Source: a virus. Taken from it: a stretch of DNA of 32,451 bases. Every line of letters starts with the position of its first letter. Positions within the stretch are counted from its first letter, which is position 1. A program made the position numbers and the translations under genes. The notes under the pieces are model-generated. The model did no database searches and was not told the DNA's origin. It saw only the letters and a list, made by a program, of their open reading frames with translations. The stretch spans positions 1-32,451 of IMG/VR virus record IMGVR_UViG_3300042988_000072, one strand, 5' to 3'. Positions 3,442 to 21,254 of this stretch are shown one piece after another.

Positions 3442-4626
3442 TTAAAGTTCTAACTTGATTACTTTTCCAGGAAGGTCTTCGTTTTTATGCGACCTTTCTG
3501 ATAACACCCATAAAATGGGTCCACGCGGTTTCATGCTTGTGTTACACTCTCCGTCGGTAAAATATACTAGACTAGTATATTGTTTAAGATTCTCATTGAA
3601 GTATTCTAATACAGGATCGAAATCTGTTCCTCCTCTTCCACCTACTTCTAAATCTAAAGTACCTTTATAAGGTTTAATACTTGTGATTTGCGTATCACAT
3701 TGTACGATAGTGACGTCTACGCCTTGCTTGTAAATATGAAATATCTCATTCATAAATTCTTTCAGCTCTGAGTCACTTACTGATCCTGATGTATCAATAG
3801 CCAACAACATGTGTTGACGCATTTTGATTTTTAATCCAGGATTATCAGAAAACCTTCTGTTCTCTTTGCGTCGTACTTTTTTTGTATAGATTTTAGTACT
3901 GTTCCCAGCAAATCTACGGACATACTCTCGCCAGTTAAACTTAGGCTTCTCTATTGTTTCTACAATGATTTTACCCTGCATCTCACCAGGTACATTTCCT
4001 TGGCGCTTTTCTGTTTGCTCTTTTACTTCATTGAGAATACGCTGTACTTGCTTCTCAATAAGTTTTCTTTCTGCTTCTGGCAAATCTTCGAATTCATCCC
4101 AAGTATCATGGTTTGCAGGATCTTCTCCTAAATCCATTTTGTCACAATCTTTGTCAAAATTGGGACAACCTGATGTACCTTTCTGTTCTTTATCTTGCTT
4201 TGCTGCAAGTAGTTTAGAATAATAATATCTACTACCCTGTTTTGGTTCCAAATTTAATTCTGGATATTTATCTAGAGTTAAACCTCCTTCTGGTAACCAG
4301 TCTGGGTGTATATATTGATTAATTTCTAAGTCAAATGCAATATTGGCTAACCTCTTATCACTAAACGGAAACGTATTAGTAAGATGGTTAAAAGCAATAT
4401 GCAAAAGCTCGTGTTTAAGTAATCCTAATTGGTGTTTGTCTCCAAGACTTTCCCAAAACTCAGGATTAATAGTAAGTTGGTAATTGATGTTGTTTTTGCT
4501 TACACATGCAGTCGGTACACGTTTAGAGTCCCATACTTTGTTTAGCATTAAAAGGAAAAAGCCGTAAAACGGCTCCTTCAACATCAATTCTTTACTAACT
4601 TTACTAAGCGATTCTGCTTTAGTCAT
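3442..4626 (-). CDS. Metallopeptidase-like VWA-domain protein (COG3864/DUF2201 type)
   Basis: 394 aa with two parts. The N-terminal part holds a zincin motif, HELLH at residues 72-76, followed by AFNH, as in predicted metal-dependent peptidases. Residues 180-210 are charged and probably coiled. The C-terminal part is a von Willebrand A domain with an intact MIDAS: DTSGS at 278-282, GGTD near 332-335, and FTDGE at 356-360. Proteins of this layout pair with MoxR AAA+ ATPases, here the next gene down. A terminator-like hairpin lies inside the first codons (4560-4574). Peptidase activity is plausible but unproven, since third zinc ligands are not identified. Confidence 0.85.
   Translation of the reverse strand: MTKAESLSKVSKELMLKEPFYGFFLLMLNKVWDSKRVPTACVSKNNINYQLTINPEFWESLGDKHQLGLLKHELLHIAFNHLTNTFPFSDKRLANIAFDLEINQYIHPDWLPEGGLTLDKYPELNLEPKQGSRYYYSKLLAAKQDKEQKGTSGCPNFDKDCDKMDLGEDPANHDTWDEFEDLPEAERKLIEKQVQRILNEVKEQTEKRQGNVPGEMQGKIIVETIEKPKFNWREYVRRFAGNSTKIYTKKVRRKENRRFSDNPGLKIKMRQHMLLAIDTSGSVSDSELKEFMNEIFHIYKQGVDVTIVQCDTQITSIKPYKGTLDLEVGGRGGTDFDPVLEYFNENLKQYTSLVYFTDGECNTSMKPRGPILWVLSERSHKNEDLPGKVIKLEL
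4560..4574 (-). terminator. Terminator-like hairpin inside the VWA gene
   Basis: Read on the minus strand, AGCCGT, loop TTT, then ACGGCT is followed at once by a run of T (TTTTTCC). This is the shape of an intrinsic terminator, with a 6-bp stem and 3-nt loop. It lies about 17-22 codons into the VWA-domain gene, not between genes. It may reduce transcription into the VWA/AAA+ pair, or may be a chance product of the codons for Lys-Glu-Pro-Phe-Tyr-Gly-Phe-Phe. Confidence 0.35.
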
Positions 4627-14205: not shown

Positions 14206-14221
14206 CTGTCAAGAGGCTTGA

Positions 14222-15368: not shown

Positions 15369-16238
15369 TTAAAAAATGTAACGAATTGTGTTCCAAGGGA
15401 TTATGCTATCGTGTAAAGTTATGAAATCTTTGATATACTTTGATTTTAAATCAAGCCTATATCGTATGTTTTCACCTCCATACTGAGAGTTTTTAGTCTC
15501 TTGGTTCTCAGGAGTCCATAGTAAATCTTCACCTAGTATATTATTTATAAGATTGTGAATGTGTTTAGATTTATTGTGAGTTAGAAAGATTACTTCAGCT
15601 TTTACTTGCTCTTTGTAATCTATATAATTCTCCAACATCTCAAACAATTCAGCATAGTCTTCTAAATAACCAGGATATACTACTACAGGACTAAAGTTAA
15701 CATGTACATCGTACCCTGCTTCTATAAATGCATCAATAGCTTTGATTCTATCGATGATTAAACTAGTGTTCGGTTCTAATATACTTGATATCTTTTGTGG
15801 CATCAGGCTAAATCTAATTCTTACTTTACGTTCAGGATTATACTCTAGAAAGTCAAGTGGAATTATTTTAGTCGCAAGTGTAGCTTTTGCAATAGGATGC
15901 GTGCGGAAGAATTCAAATATTCTCTGCCAATTGTGATACTTGGCATGGAGCGCAAAGTCCTCATTGCATGCAATATCATAGGTAATAAAATGTTCATCTG
16001 TTTGATTAGGTTTAGGAACATCAGCATAAAAGAATGCATGATTGTTAATCTCAGTTAAGATATCACCTGTGTTTTTAGCAATATCAACTCCTTTTGGTTT
16101 ATGACGCTTCATGTAGCAGTAGCCACATTCTAATAAGCAGCCAAAACCAAAAGAAGGAGATATATAATCACTTGACCTACCTGATTCTCTGATTTTAAAG
16201 GTCTTTCTTATGACCTCTTTCTTTAAAACAGGCTTCAT
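15369..16238 (-). CDS. Radical SAM enzyme, spore photoproduct lyase family
   Basis: 289 aa. The SAM/4Fe-4S motif is CX3CX2C: Cys 34, 38 and 41 in SFGFGCLLECGYCYMKRH. The barrel continues with RIRFSLMPQ, HVNFSPVVVYPGY and EVIFLTHN strands, and the end KSKYIKDFITLHDSIIPWNTIRYIF matches the spore photoproduct lyase (SplB) C-terminus. Cellular members reverse the UV-made spore photoproduct dimer; phage members may repair thymine lesions or act on another substrate. Length is a little below SplB (about 340). It follows the 49-aa lipoprotein gene by 3 nt, in an operon with thioredoxin. Confidence 0.8.
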   Translation of the reverse strand: MKPVLKKEVIRKTFKIRESGRSSDYISPSFGFGCLLECGYCYMKRHKPKGVDIAKNTGDILTEINNHAFFYADVPKPNQTDEHFITYDIACNEDFALHAKYHNWQRIFEFFRTHPIAKATLATKIIPLDFLEYNPERKVRIRFSLMPQKISSILEPNTSLIIDRIKAIDAFIEAGYDVHVNFSPVVVYPGYLEDYAELFEMLENYIDYKEQVKAEVIFLTHNKSKHIHNLINNILGEDLLWTPENQETKNSQYGGENIRYRLDLKSKYIKDFITLHDSIIPWNTIRYIF

Positions 16239-16815: not shown

Positions 16816-16819
16816 TTTG

Positions 16820-16924
16820 TAGCCAGGAGGGAGTCGAACCCTGTAGGAAATCAAGTTAACTATAAGATATATCATCCAAAAAAGAATTCGTTAACTCAAC
16901 TGTGCACCCCGTGCCACCTGACTA
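16820..16924 (-). tRNA. tRNA-like gene 2, 105 nt, with insert
   Basis: The ends pair as TAGTCAG / CTGGCTA (one G-U), and the T-arm AGGG-TTCGACT-CCCT is intact. The first 11 bases (TAGTCAGGTGG) are nearly those of tRNA-like gene 1, so the two are related. A D-arm-like GCA...TGC has a very short loop. Between D- and T-arms there is a 10-pair helix TTGAGTTAAC / GTTAACTTGA around a 29-nt AT-rich loop. The total of 105 nt is too long for any normal tRNA; it could be a class II tRNA with a giant arm, a tRNA with a small insert, or a tRNA mimic. Confidence 0.45.
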
Positions 16925-18579: not shown

Positions 18580-18733
18580 ATACAACAATTCCCGATATAG
18601 TACCAAGCAAGCACAGGCCAACCAATAACCAGCCCAGATGATCGCTGAAATATTGGTTACTGAGTGCAAGGTATGTAGTTGTTAGTAAGAGTACAATCAT
18701 TACTATAACTAAAAATAAAGCTTCTTTCTTCAT
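18563..18733 (-). CDS. 56-aa two-helix membrane protein
   Basis: ATG at 18731-18733, stop TAA at 18563-18565. Basic start MKKEALF, a first helix (VIVMIVLLLTTTYLAL), a short polar turn SNQYFSDH, a second helix (GWLLVGLCLLGTISGIVV), and the end YQGEK: a clean helical hairpin of holin-like size, though without the usual charged tail. It begins 1 nt after the stop of a 21-aa peptide gene. Confidence 0.65.
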   Translation of the reverse strand: MKKEALFLVIVMIVLLLTTTYLALSNQYFSDHLGWLLVGLCLLGTISGIVVYQGEK

Positions 18734-18734
18734 G

Positions 18735-18800
18735 TTATTGAGCTATTAATAAAAAAACAAAGTATCCTAAGATTACTGCTACTATTATAATGTGTATCAT
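18735..18800 (-). CDS. 21-aa single-membrane-segment peptide
   Basis: ATG at 18798-18800, stop TAA at 18735-18737. Nearly the whole peptide is one hydrophobic helix (MIHIIIVAVILGYFVFLLIA), ending in Gln. There is 1 nt to the gene on each side, a packing too tight to be chance. One of the smallest genes in the window. Confidence 0.5.
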   Translation of the reverse strand: MIHIIIVAVILGYFVFLLIAQ

Positions 18801-18801
18801 A

Positions 18802-18999
18802 TTAATCTTCTTTGTAAGCATCATGCCATTCAGCAGCAAACCATACTGTTATACATAATACTAGTGATTGAATAATCCATGTAAATGGGTTTGTGTAAGA
18901 TGCTGTATTAAAGACATTTCCCATTGTTATTAATCCCTCAAAGAATAGAACACATAATAATGTAGTAGCTAGTCTTCCAATAAGTTTAATTGTATTCAT
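18802..18999 (-). CDS. Small membrane protein, 65 aa
   Basis: Two predicted membrane helices: residues 8-27 (RLATTLLCVLFFEGLITMG) and 42-57 (WIIQSLVLCITVWFAA), with a short acidic end WHDAYKED. First gene of the membrane-protein operon; a CCTTTAAA element lies 10 nt before the start. Not recognised. Confidence 0.65.
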   Translation of the reverse strand: MNTIKLIGRLATTLLCVLFFEGLITMGNVFNTASYTNPFTWIIQSLVLCITVWFAAEWHDAYKED

Positions 19000-19009
19000 T
19001 TTGTTTAGT

Positions 19010-19017
19010 TTTAAAGG
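19010..19017 (-). promoter_or_regulatory. CCTTTAAA start-site element (membrane protein operon)
   Basis: CCTTTAAAAC on the minus strand, 10 nt from the ATG of the 65-aa gene, preceded by ATTTTATTCA. Same as the element before thioredoxin. Marks the start of the operon. Confidence 0.4.
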
Positions 19018-19059
19018 TGAATAAAATAGTGTTGACTTTCAGATCTTCTCAGTCCCGCA

Positions 19060-19921
19060 ATATAAACGGACAATCTTTTTGTTTCCATAACAATTCGGGT
19101 AACTCACATCCCTAGGTCGGTTGGTACTAAGAGTCATAATTGTACCTGGTTAAATATGCATGCCTCTTTCATGGTCACATGCTCCCAATAATCCCTCTGC
19201 ACTCAGTTGTAATACTTCATAGCCTATAGACCACAAATAAATTGTGTACGGAATAATTCTTACATACTTCATATTACAACTGCTCACCCTTGGGAAGTGA
19301 GTTGTGGTGCATTACAAAAGACTAAAAGTTGTAGAGAGAATGTACCAATATCTCTACCTTTCCAAACTATACGATACATTTCTTCTAACAACCTCACATG
19401 TATCCCTACATGCTACAAAGAAAGCTTTTAGTCTTGGTGGATGGTTTTACGTACTCTCACAAGGTTGCAACCCTTGAATGTAATAGCCTCTACATACTAC
19501 TATACTTCGTATGTTACTATTATGGTATGATATCCACACGCTCAGCATTACTGATTGTGTTTACCTGCTTGGATGAGAGTAATAAAGAAACAGTTGTGTT
19601 TATTGCGAGAGGACTCTTGTCCTCTGTTCTTGGATAGTATTCATTACAGACCCTTTGGCCTTTAGAATACATCCTCACCCAGTTCAGGGATACCATAAAG
19701 ACAAGCATTCATCTTTAAGTACTCACAACTGTTTCTATGTGTGTAGCTCATTTGTAATGAGACCTATATCCTGTGTTAACTATGGTATATAGGATTTAAA
19801 GTAAACATAGCCCTAGTTATAGAGCTATGCTTATCACGCATGTTACTATGCGTTAGTGTTTACTACCCACTCGAGGATAGTAATAACACCGTCTACTATG
19901 ATGTATGTGTCCATAGGTAGA
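19060..19921 (+). ncRNA. Large ornate structured RNA candidate (GOLLD/ROOL-like style)
   Basis: No believable gene lies here, yet nested inverted repeats follow one another. Main helices: 19204-19214/19272-19282 (11 bp); 19318-19330/19423-19435 (13 bp with one U-G), enclosing 19331-19337/19351-19357 and 19397-19402/19407-19412; 19481-19486/19517-19522, enclosing 19492-19497/19509-19514; 19586-19598/19724-19736 (13 bp, perfect), enclosing three hairpins (19608-19614/19619-19625; 19632-19642/19665-19674 with an A bulge; 19696-19701/19712-19717); 19747-19761; 19763-19769/19787-19793; 19800-19807/19857-19864, closing a three-way junction; 19892-19900/19912-19921. Wobble pairs at several helices fit a plus-strand RNA better. 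Phages are known to carry such giant RNAs; the family here is not assigned. Confidence 0.65.
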
Positions 19922-19998
19922 AGATTAAGGGGTTAGTACTAATTAAGCGATAAACTTAACATATGAGGGTTGTATTTAGGGTATTAAGAATAACCAAT
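19922..19998. other. AT-rich spacer after the structured RNA
   Basis: Only short repeats are seen here, such as the palindrome TTAGTACTAA near 19933. No gene, and no clear plus-strand terminator for the structured RNA, whose 3' end is therefore uncertain. Confidence 0.5.
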
Positions 19999-20016
19999 AA
20001 CCCCCCGAAGGGGGTT
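19985..20016 (-). terminator. UUCG-loop terminator of the 98-aa gene
   Basis: On the minus strand AACCCCC, loop TTCG, GGGGGTT: a 7-bp stem closed by the very stable UUCG-type tetraloop (plus 19999-20005 and 20010-20016), then T-rich ATTGGTTATT. Outer CCAA/TTGG can extend it. It sits 8 nt after the stop. Confidence 0.85.
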
Positions 20017-20024
20017 GGTAGTAC

Positions 20025-20321
20025 TTAATACGCGAACAACACACGACGACCAGCATCGTAGGTAGTACCGTTGAACTCGAACTCGCGTGTTGATTCGAAT
20101 TCACCCATATTCCACTCACGGTCAGACGCAGTGGTGAAGCCGTCCTCGAGTATCTTGCTACGGATACGGACGTAGTAACCGTCGAACAGGAACGTGCTGT
20201 CGTCGATTACGGTGATTCCCTCGTCATTAGCACGGAAGGTTCCGATAACGTTGACGAGAGAGAAGAGTGGCGTACCGTATTGGGTTACGCCAGAAGAGAT
20301 GAGTGCTTGATTCAGTGCCAT
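20025..20321 (-). CDS. Isolated small protein of unknown function, 98 aa
   Basis: 98 aa, soluble, beta-rich: it starts MALNQALISSGVTQYGTPLF and carries FLFDGYYVRIRSKIL and STREFEFNGTTYDAGRRVLF, alternating strands of a small barrel or sandwich. Not recognised. The gene stands alone between the structured RNA and the control region, with its own CCTTTAAA element (10 nt before the ATG) and a very strong terminator. Codons are G/C-rich (many CG and GAC/AAC), unlike neighbours, as in highly expressed or recently acquired genes. It may be an early or abundant host-directed protein. Confidence 0.7.
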   Translation of the reverse strand: MALNQALISSGVTQYGTPLFSLVNVIGTFRANDEGITVIDDSTFLFDGYYVRIRSKILEDGFTTASDREWNMGEFESTREFEFNGTTYDAGRRVLFAY

Positions 20322-20331
20322 GGTTATAAGT

Positions 20332-20339
20332 TTTAAAGG
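20332..20339 (-). promoter_or_regulatory. CCTTTAAA start-site element (98-aa gene)
   Basis: CCTTTAAAAC with 10 nt to the ATG of the 98-aa gene. Fourth full copy of the element in the window. Confidence 0.4.
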
Positions 20340-20372
20340 CGTGAGACGAATCGACCGCAGGACTTTCCTACG

Positions 20373-20471
20373 GACAGGGGGGATAGTTTCCCCGCCCCAA
20401 ATTTAGTGGGGGTTCACGGTTTAGGTGGTAACCACTATTGTCTCTCTTTAGACTTTTCCTACAGGGGGGGT
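20373..20471. repeat. Pair of C/T- and G-run repeats in the control region
   Basis: ACTTTCCTACggACAGGGGGG near 20373 recurs as ACTTTTCCTACAGGGGGGG near 20452, about 80 bp apart. The 414-bp stretch 20322-20735 has no gene; it holds these G-runs, two pairs of 32-bp-spaced repeats, and the promoter of the first rightward gene. Confidence 0.5.
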
Positions 20472-20500
20472 CTATTTTTTAAACCACTGGTGTACTATTT

Positions 20501-20547
20501 TAAGGCCATACCCTGAAAATTTTTTTGTTATGTAAGGCTATACCCTT
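20501..20547. repeat. Direct repeat TAAGGCYATACCCT, 32 bp apart
   Basis: TAAGGCCATACCCT starts at 20501 and TAAGGCTATACCCT at 20533: 13 of 14 bases the same, offset exactly 32 bp, about three helix turns. Same offset as the palindrome pair at 20644/20676. Likely binding sites for a regulator or initiator. Confidence 0.55.
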
Positions 20548-20643
20548 AACTACTGAAAGAAGGATCCCAAATAATATCAAGCGTGAAATCACAAAAAATC
20601 TTCTATATCCCTTACTGCTTATACGCTACAGACGATTTATACG

Positions 20644-20692
20644 AGTCCCCTAAAAGGGACTTATAGGGGGTTAAAAGTCCCCTAAAAGGGAC
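20644..20692. promoter_or_regulatory. Tandem palindromic operators, 32 bp apart
   Basis: AGTCCCCTAAAAGGGACT at 20644-20661 and the same 17 bases (last T changed to A) at 20676-20692. Each is an inverted repeat GTCCC-CTAAAA-GGGAC. They lie 40-90 bp upstream of the winged-helix gene at 20736 and just upstream of its promoter, so one of the two winged-helix proteins may bind them; an origin iteron is an alternative. Confidence 0.6.
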
Positions 20693-20701
20693 AAATAGTC
20701 G

Positions 20702-20731
20702 TTGTATTATAAAAAAATTATAGTAACTTTA
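20702..20731 (+). promoter_or_regulatory. Promoter for the first rightward gene
   Basis: TTG at 20702-20704 and TAACTTTA at 20724-20731 (one base off TAnnTTTG), spacing 19. The box ends 4 nt before the ATG, so the mRNA would have little or no leader. Confidence 0.55.
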
Positions 20732-20735
20732 CCCC

Positions 20736-21254
20736 ATGGGAAACAAAATCACACAACCTAGACTAAAGAAAAATGTAGACTTTGATCTAGAAACTTATGT
20801 TAATACTGAGACAGGAGAATTACTAAGCTCTGCACTTGGCAAAGACAAACTATCTGTTAGCGTTACAGAGAAGGGTGACTACGTTGTTATGAGTTCTGAT
20901 GACTATGTAGTACTCGACAGTGAAACAGTAAGGTTCTTGTCTAATGAACTTTCTCGTTCTGAGCTTAGCAACGTACTGCTTATGGCTACTGATCTTAAAA
21001 CTCCTCTCAATCTTGTGTACAACGGACCACAGCCTCACAGTAATGAGTCACTTCAATCTTTCTTAGGTTACTCATCGAGAGATAAGTTCTTTAAGCTGCT
21101 CAAGAAACTAATGGAGCTTGGTGTGCTTTATCAGATCAAAGGTAGGATCTCAGGAGAACTACGCGTTGTATATATGTTAAATCCTTACATAGCTCGTAAA
21201 CGTAAGACGATAGACAATACTGTCTTTAATGTCTTTCAGCCTTTTATAAAATAA
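20736..21254 (+). CDS. Winged-helix protein, RepL-like
   Basis: 172 aa. Residues 75-115 (LSRSELSNVLLMATDLKTPLNLVYNG) and 103-150 (LQSFLGYSSRDKFFKLLKKLMELGVLYQIKGR) form a winged helix with recognition helix and wing. The end VVYMLNPYIARKRKTIDNTVFNVFQPF resembles the 'Y-x-x-N-P' end of RepL-type plasmid replication proteins and related phage regulators. It could be an initiator or a transcription regulator. First gene of the right arm, with possible operators (20644-20692) directly upstream, which suggests self-control. Confidence 0.65.
   Translation: MGNKITQPRLKKNVDFDLETYVNTETGELLSSALGKDKLSVSVTEKGDYVVMSSDDYVVLDSETVRFLSNELSRSELSNVLLMATDLKTPLNLVYNGPQPHSNESLQSFLGYSSRDKFFKLLKKLMELGVLYQIKGRISGELRVVYMLNPYIARKRKTIDNTVFNVFQPFIK

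Follow-up and report, generated by a model that had tools for sequence, protein, structure and literature searches.

The window analysed here, a stretch of 32,451 nucleotides, is the IMG/VR record IMGVR_UViG_3300042988_000072, a 32-kb virus record for which a reading as phage is fair. A DNA polymerase gene lies in the left arm, and the terminase, portal and major head protein genes lie in the right arm. The neighbouring left-arm genes, up to position 18999, are all on the minus strand. A gene for a DUF2201 putative metallopeptidase with a VWA-like domain was also seen in the left arm (3442-4626, minus strand), and a spore photoproduct lyase family protein (PF20903, E 5e-24) is encoded, in what is a crAss-like phage, at 15369-16238 on the minus strand.

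The array of RNA modules described below is preceded on its upstream side by a gene for a 98-aa protein (20025-20321, minus strand), with relatives 64-66% identical in 5 loci and without a match in a PHROGs search. The gene is followed by a terminator-like hairpin (19999-20016, minus strand; AACCCCCTTCGGGGGGTT) and a T-rich tail. Terminator-like sites were more numerous in the region than in shuffled sequence (7 vs. 1.2), while a scan for sigma-70 promoters gave no more sites than in shuffles. Further upstream than the 98-aa gene, a block that is rich in GC and able to form hairpins (20376-20440, minus strand) is conserved in about 12 loci and may be a leader or a further RNA family. Just ahead of the right-arm genes, at 20638-20695, gtcccctaaaagggac palindromes are repeated.

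A first-pass annotation had described the space between the two arms, 19060-19921, as some 860 nt free of credible genes. This has to be amended at one end. Read on the minus strand, 19800-19914 consists of a micro-ORF of 22 codons (19846-19914; MDTYIIVDGVITILEWVVNTNA) and then a terminator-like hairpin (19806-19829), an organisation that sets it apart from modules A-E. The peptide could be read in 26 of the 28 homologous loci and remained recognisable across loci despite divergence; the hairpin is kept in 28 loci with a varying stem sequence. These genes form a family of micro-proteins of 19-24 codons, with the pattern I/V-x-GV-x-T ... N-x-NA-stop, located between the arms. The helices that had been assigned to a structured RNA at 19800-19864 and 19892-19921 overlap the micro-ORF and its hairpin.

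Strand and modular layout

The region folded better than its dinucleotide shuffles on both strands (z -7.22 on the minus and -3.60 on the plus strand, with 0 of 20 shuffles folding as well on either), in agreement with the earlier view that it is unusually structured. The plus strand had been proposed as the sense strand, in part from a wobble pair at 19329/19424. This pair lies in module C, where the minus reading of four homologs gave G.U at 5 pairs and A.C at none. The same asymmetry was seen in module B (47 G.U vs. 18 A.C) and module D (10 vs. 3), again reading the minus strand. Since the folding z-scores, the G.U asymmetry in relatives and the orientation of the genes all point the same way, the predicted sense strand of the RNA modules is the minus strand, contrary to the first proposal.

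To define module borders, the window was compared with 198 other non-redundant loci (L numbers below). Relatives were gathered through a terminase search, which yielded 79, and a search with the 98-aa protein, which yielded 5; two pattern scans of IMG/VR gave at least about 120 stretches each. The region and its relatives share short, near-perfect blocks separated by variable spacers, and iterated profiles resolved these blocks into separate units, present in one to three copies per phage and in differing order. By this comparison, 19024-19738 (minus strand) is not one RNA; five modules with sharp borders, A to E, follow one another head to tail. Modules of this kind recur, singly and reordered, in at least about 200 other uncultivated phage loci, on one strand per locus.

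Module A (19024-19186) is a structured element that recurs separately in other contigs: blocks 93-96% identical with the same borders were found in L166, L096 and L069, weaker ones in L139, L171 and L194, and profile matches in 14 loci. Module C (19314-19450) is closed by the helix 19318-19330/19423-19435, and its four homologs (L157, L037, L106 and L201) provided 2 compensatory pairs. In module E (19584-19738), the closing helix is the perfect 13-bp one at 19586-19598/19724-19736; across its homologs (L107 99-241 and L173 8406-8548) there were 3 compensatory pairs and 0 broken pairs. Both closing helices had been picked out in the first-pass annotation and are well founded.

Swaps of whole modules were seen in L157, whose flanks, module C and module D match those of the window at about 98.5% identity. 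This phage carries an unrelated 176-nt module in place of module E, has a different insert in module B, has gained an extra module and is missing module A. A single 860-nt RNA is contradicted by relatives in which the modules lie apart and in other orders, and by so close a relative in which single modules have been swapped; one conserved long RNA with a fixed order of domains is not what the comparison yielded. No Rfam family was found in the window at gathering level, nor any of the known self-cleaving ribozyme families in Rfam. The models of GOLLD, ROOL and OLE, which are RNAs that form homo-oligomers, and of HEARO, against which a giant RNA was to be checked, gave no match in 18700-20740 at E values up to 10; the matches at this threshold were at chance level, one twister-P3 among them.

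Constant frames and exchangeable inner domains

In modules B and D, a frame that hardly changes encloses an inner domain that varies greatly. Module B (19187-19317, minus strand; model match 96.6 bits) reads, in sense order, UAAUGCACCAU, the P2 hairpin, CAGUUGUAAU, the variable domain, AUUACAACUG, A, GUGCA and GAGGGR. P1 is formed by UGCAC/GUGCA, P2 has the loop UUCCCAAGG, and P3 (CAGUUGUAAU/AUUACAACUG), which bears the variable domain, is the helix noted earlier at 19204-19214/19272-19282. Double changes were found in 19 of 20 pairs among 119 sequences, with 226 double-change cells vs. 47 in shuffles and a covariation score of 0.313 vs. 0.128 (0 of 500 shuffles as high), in an alignment that was fitted to its model; a MAFFT alignment of 32 sequences that was not model-fitted agreed with this. 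The P2 loop, UUCCC, and the GGGR bulge are able to base-pair (UCCC with GGGR). The loop UCCC and the 3′ GGG tend to go missing together (Fisher p 2e-4, an indicative value, the sequences being related), and in L081 and L089 loop and bulge are altered yet still pairable. Module B is a predicted three-way junction with a loop-bulge pseudoknot; covariation is strong in B and also in D.

Module D (19447-19587, minus strand; model match 71.7 bits) has the consensus ACUCUCA-UCCAA(UU)GCAGG, variable domain, CAAGG-RUUGCAA-CCUUG-UGAGAGU. In the window, P1 is ACUCUCA/UGAGAGU, followed by the joining strand UCCAAGCAGG, the variable domain and the P2 hairpin CAAGG-GUUGCAA-CCUUG. The set comprised 109 sequences; the 107 distinct ones showed double changes in 7 of 12 pairs and a covariation score of 0.106 vs. 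0.052 in shuffles (0 of 500 as high), and an unfitted alignment of 32 sequences gave 0.090 vs. 0.030. In rare variants, a changed hairpin loop goes with a changed 5′ joining strand (UUGCAG with UUGCAA, UUGUAG with UUACAG, AAUAGG with UUAGAA), which suggests that the two probably form a second pseudoknot. Compensatory base changes of these kinds, looked for on the advice of the first-pass annotation, lend weight to its broader view that the phage carries structured RNA of an undescribed family.

The inner arms of D (52 non-redundant) range from 4 to about 145 nt, the shortest leaving a near-empty frame in L093. They form conserved families with compensatory pairs of their own, and they are not tied to one frame: one inner domain occurs in different frames in L030 (B), L232 and L114, another in four frames (L239 (B), L095 (D), L290 and L112), and one insert is common to two B subtypes in L245 and L043.

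Bodies resembling tRNAs serve as frames too. A default ARAGORN run found no tRNA in the window; a tRNA-like body was found at 16819-16923 (minus strand) when insertions were allowed, a setting that gave 0 such matches in shuffled sequence. It has an acceptor and a T arm, but an extended stem of 12 bp takes the place of the anticodon arm, so that there is no cloverleaf with a 7-nt anticodon loop; it is probably a tRNA-framed cassette. Over 3.3 Mb, allowing insertions raised the number of tRNA-like genes reported by ARAGORN from 83 to 125, and Markov shuffles of the same sequence gave 0. The arrays include tRNA bodies whose anticodon arm carries an insert, and within array loci 37 of 37 tRNA-like bodies are on the array strand. 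A conserved element (GACACATAAACTTCAGTTCCC...GTGTGTC) was seen directly upstream of tRNA-like bodies in L111 (10230-10330) and L114 (3020-3120).

Annotated elements were on the strand of B and D in 527 of 530 cases, ORFs of at least 80 aa near the arrays were mostly co-oriented (923 vs. 273 not), D stood ahead of B in 73 of 76 loci, and scans of 38 whole records placed the B and D matches mostly in one locus per phage; it should be noted that the scanned records were picked through B, D or terminase, which biases such placement rates. In carriers about 94-136 kb in size, the frame cores are nearly identical, while the terminases mostly share 25-33% identity with that of the window. This spread of frames over distant phages is the mark of horizontal exchange, strong constraint, or both; because the frame helices vary little, part of the similarity could reflect recent spread rather than constraint. 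No match was found among cultured phages (50,697 records) or plasmids. Within GTDB genomes, the D core had 0 matches and the B core 3, of which only L305, a small MAG contig that is probably a mis-binned phage, carries a B element by the model.

Interpretation of the array

We consider it very likely that the locus is a modular array of small RNA cassettes. Sequence comparison shows the frames with their covarying pairs and the sense strand; it also shows that inner domains pass between frames, that near-identical phages exchange whole modules, and that the arrays have spread over distant lineages. The best overall explanation, which we favour with some reserve, is a minus-strand phage RNA-cassette array with exchangeable inner domains. 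Each cassette, of about 60-220 nt, consists of an exchangeable RNA domain set inside a constant frame; the clamp of the frame is a pseudoknot in B and D, a long helix in C and E, and in other cassettes a tRNA body. The cassettes would be transcribed together with small early genes and the transcript cleaved within the AU-rich spacers; the frame would fold and shield the ends, and perhaps bind a common protein, while the inner domain would carry a specific activity in trans. Arrays would change through homologous recombination at the conserved frame halves.

That the modules act in trans as processed small RNAs is a reading to which we lean slightly, because they are stacked without ORFs, use tRNA frames and are exchanged independently of the next gene. 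Their fast turnover and their setting among small accessory ORFs, the two observations from which a purpose can be drawn, tentatively suggest counter-defence or host takeover, a suggestion that may well prove wrong. The picture of an RNA display system, in which knot-clamped frames, some of them built from tRNA bodies, with slotted interchangeable effector domains would be traded across distant phages like anti-defence genes, is one for which we would claim not quite an even chance.

The alternative that survives best, though we judge it unlikely, is that the modules are cis-acting 5′-UTR riboswitches or attenuators of small minus-strand genes. The modules are co-oriented with genes and have the compact pseudoknotted folds typical of riboswitches, and an ORF starts 15-80 nt downstream in 62 of 164 B elements. 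The same is true, however, of only 16 of 111 D elements, and with these two counts a leader role would explain at most a part of the array. Furthermore, the window modules are directly stacked with no ORFs between them, gaps between elements are 60 nt or less in 79 of 314 cases, inner domains move between frames, and the arrays include tRNA-like bodies.

Somewhat less probable again is the proposal that frames B and D are putative new self-cleaving ribozyme cores with the variable part as a tolerated arm. Hatchet ribozymes (RF02678) do occur in five carrier records, on the array strand, and a core that has a pseudoknot, unpaired bases that do not vary and one arm that does is reminiscent of small ribozymes. 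There is no hatchet ribozyme in the window, and frames B and D do not fit its model. Ribozyme stems are usually free to vary, whereas the frame helices are nearly constant in sequence, and the inner arms are conserved structured families exchanged between unrelated frames. Self-cleavage by the frames would nevertheless be compatible with the cassette reading; the two are not exclusive.

The sharp borders and swapping of modules could also stem from recombination of DNA cassettes, the modules being attC-like sites that fold as single strands and do nothing as RNA. We think this very improbable: G.U pairs are tolerated in a strand-specific way, co-orientation with genes is strict, tRNA bodies serve as frames and the inner domains are structured.

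A constant scaffold with a variable part likewise recalls the guide RNA of an RNA-guided nuclease, a retron or a diversity-generating element, and there is a precedent in RAGATH-18, which proved to be a TnpB guide RNA (PMC11061315). TnpB/Cas12f (PF07282) and reverse transcriptase (PF00078) were each found in 0 of 37 carrier records, which may be fragments, and RtcB was likewise not found in the 37. The absence of TnpB and reverse transcriptase disfavours the nuclease-guide and retron readings, and the inner arms are structured and conserved rather than free guides, so that we give this family of explanations scarcely any weight. Compared with the RAGATH-18-derived guide RNA of IS607 TnpB, the cassettes share the joining of scaffold and variable part, but their variable part is internal and folded. 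ToxI-like RNAs of type III toxin-antitoxin systems are near-identical pseudoknot repeats in tandem, beside a gene for a ToxN-like endoribonuclease. In a comparison with them, the modules were not identical repeats, and Pfam gave no ToxN-like toxin among 20 window proteins.

The weakest candidate is the one first proposed, a giant plus-strand RNA of the GOLLD/ROOL kind: the window resembles these in having a long, helix-rich noncoding stretch of low folding energy in a phage with tRNA relatives nearby, yet GOLLD and ROOL are each one long RNA that assembles into nanocages (PMC12286853), while here separate, reshuffled modules of about 60-220 nt, swapped in L157, lie on the opposite strand without an Rfam match and next to a micro-protein gene within the same stretch, and we regard the proposal in its original form as refuted.

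Other known systems share single traits with the arrays. The head-to-tail order of small stable RNAs, tRNA bodies among them, recalls phage tRNA arrays; in contrast to these, most cassettes are not tRNAs, and the tRNA-like ones carry a structured insert and no ordinary anticodon arm. RAGATH motifs are structured RNAs from the vicinity of twister and hammerhead ribozymes, and the association of the present cassettes with a small self-cleaving ribozyme, hatchet, is similar. There was no match to the RAGATH motifs deposited in Rfam 15, which are those the comparison covers, and to our knowledge a design of frame plus exchangeable domain has not been described for them. More generally, with RAGATH motifs compared as far as Rfam contains them, we know of no described system that mounts interchangeable inner RNA domains in arrayed, constant pseudoknotted frames, and the open-access journal literature contained no account of such arrays.

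The array has the look of a new type of RNA toolkit, one whose exchangeable parts are shuffled among uncultivated phages. If this is right, it would be an RNA-only counterpart of a protein accessory island, with a standard frame and a fast-swapped functional insert, and would account for the gene-poor stretch between the arms of this crAss-like phage. It would also add several RNA families new to Rfam and offer a natural scaffold for the display of RNA domains, with many ready-made inner domains for testing against host factors.

Further conserved blocks

Beyond modules A-E, the arrays contain at least 8 further conserved block families, several with visibly covarying stems; as cassette families, these are defined by short conserved blocks only. 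One of them, family N, was seen in five loci (L109, L214, L216, L252 and L281), where it has a hairpin CTTAATAACTTCCCAAGTTGTTGAG, encloses a variable insert with CTTTGATA/TATCAAAG as the frame, and ends in GGTGTAAAACAC. In L265, near position 14217, the inner domain of a B element contains GUUUUAGAGCUAUGUU, which resembles the beginning of a type II-A CRISPR repeat, though this may be due to chance.
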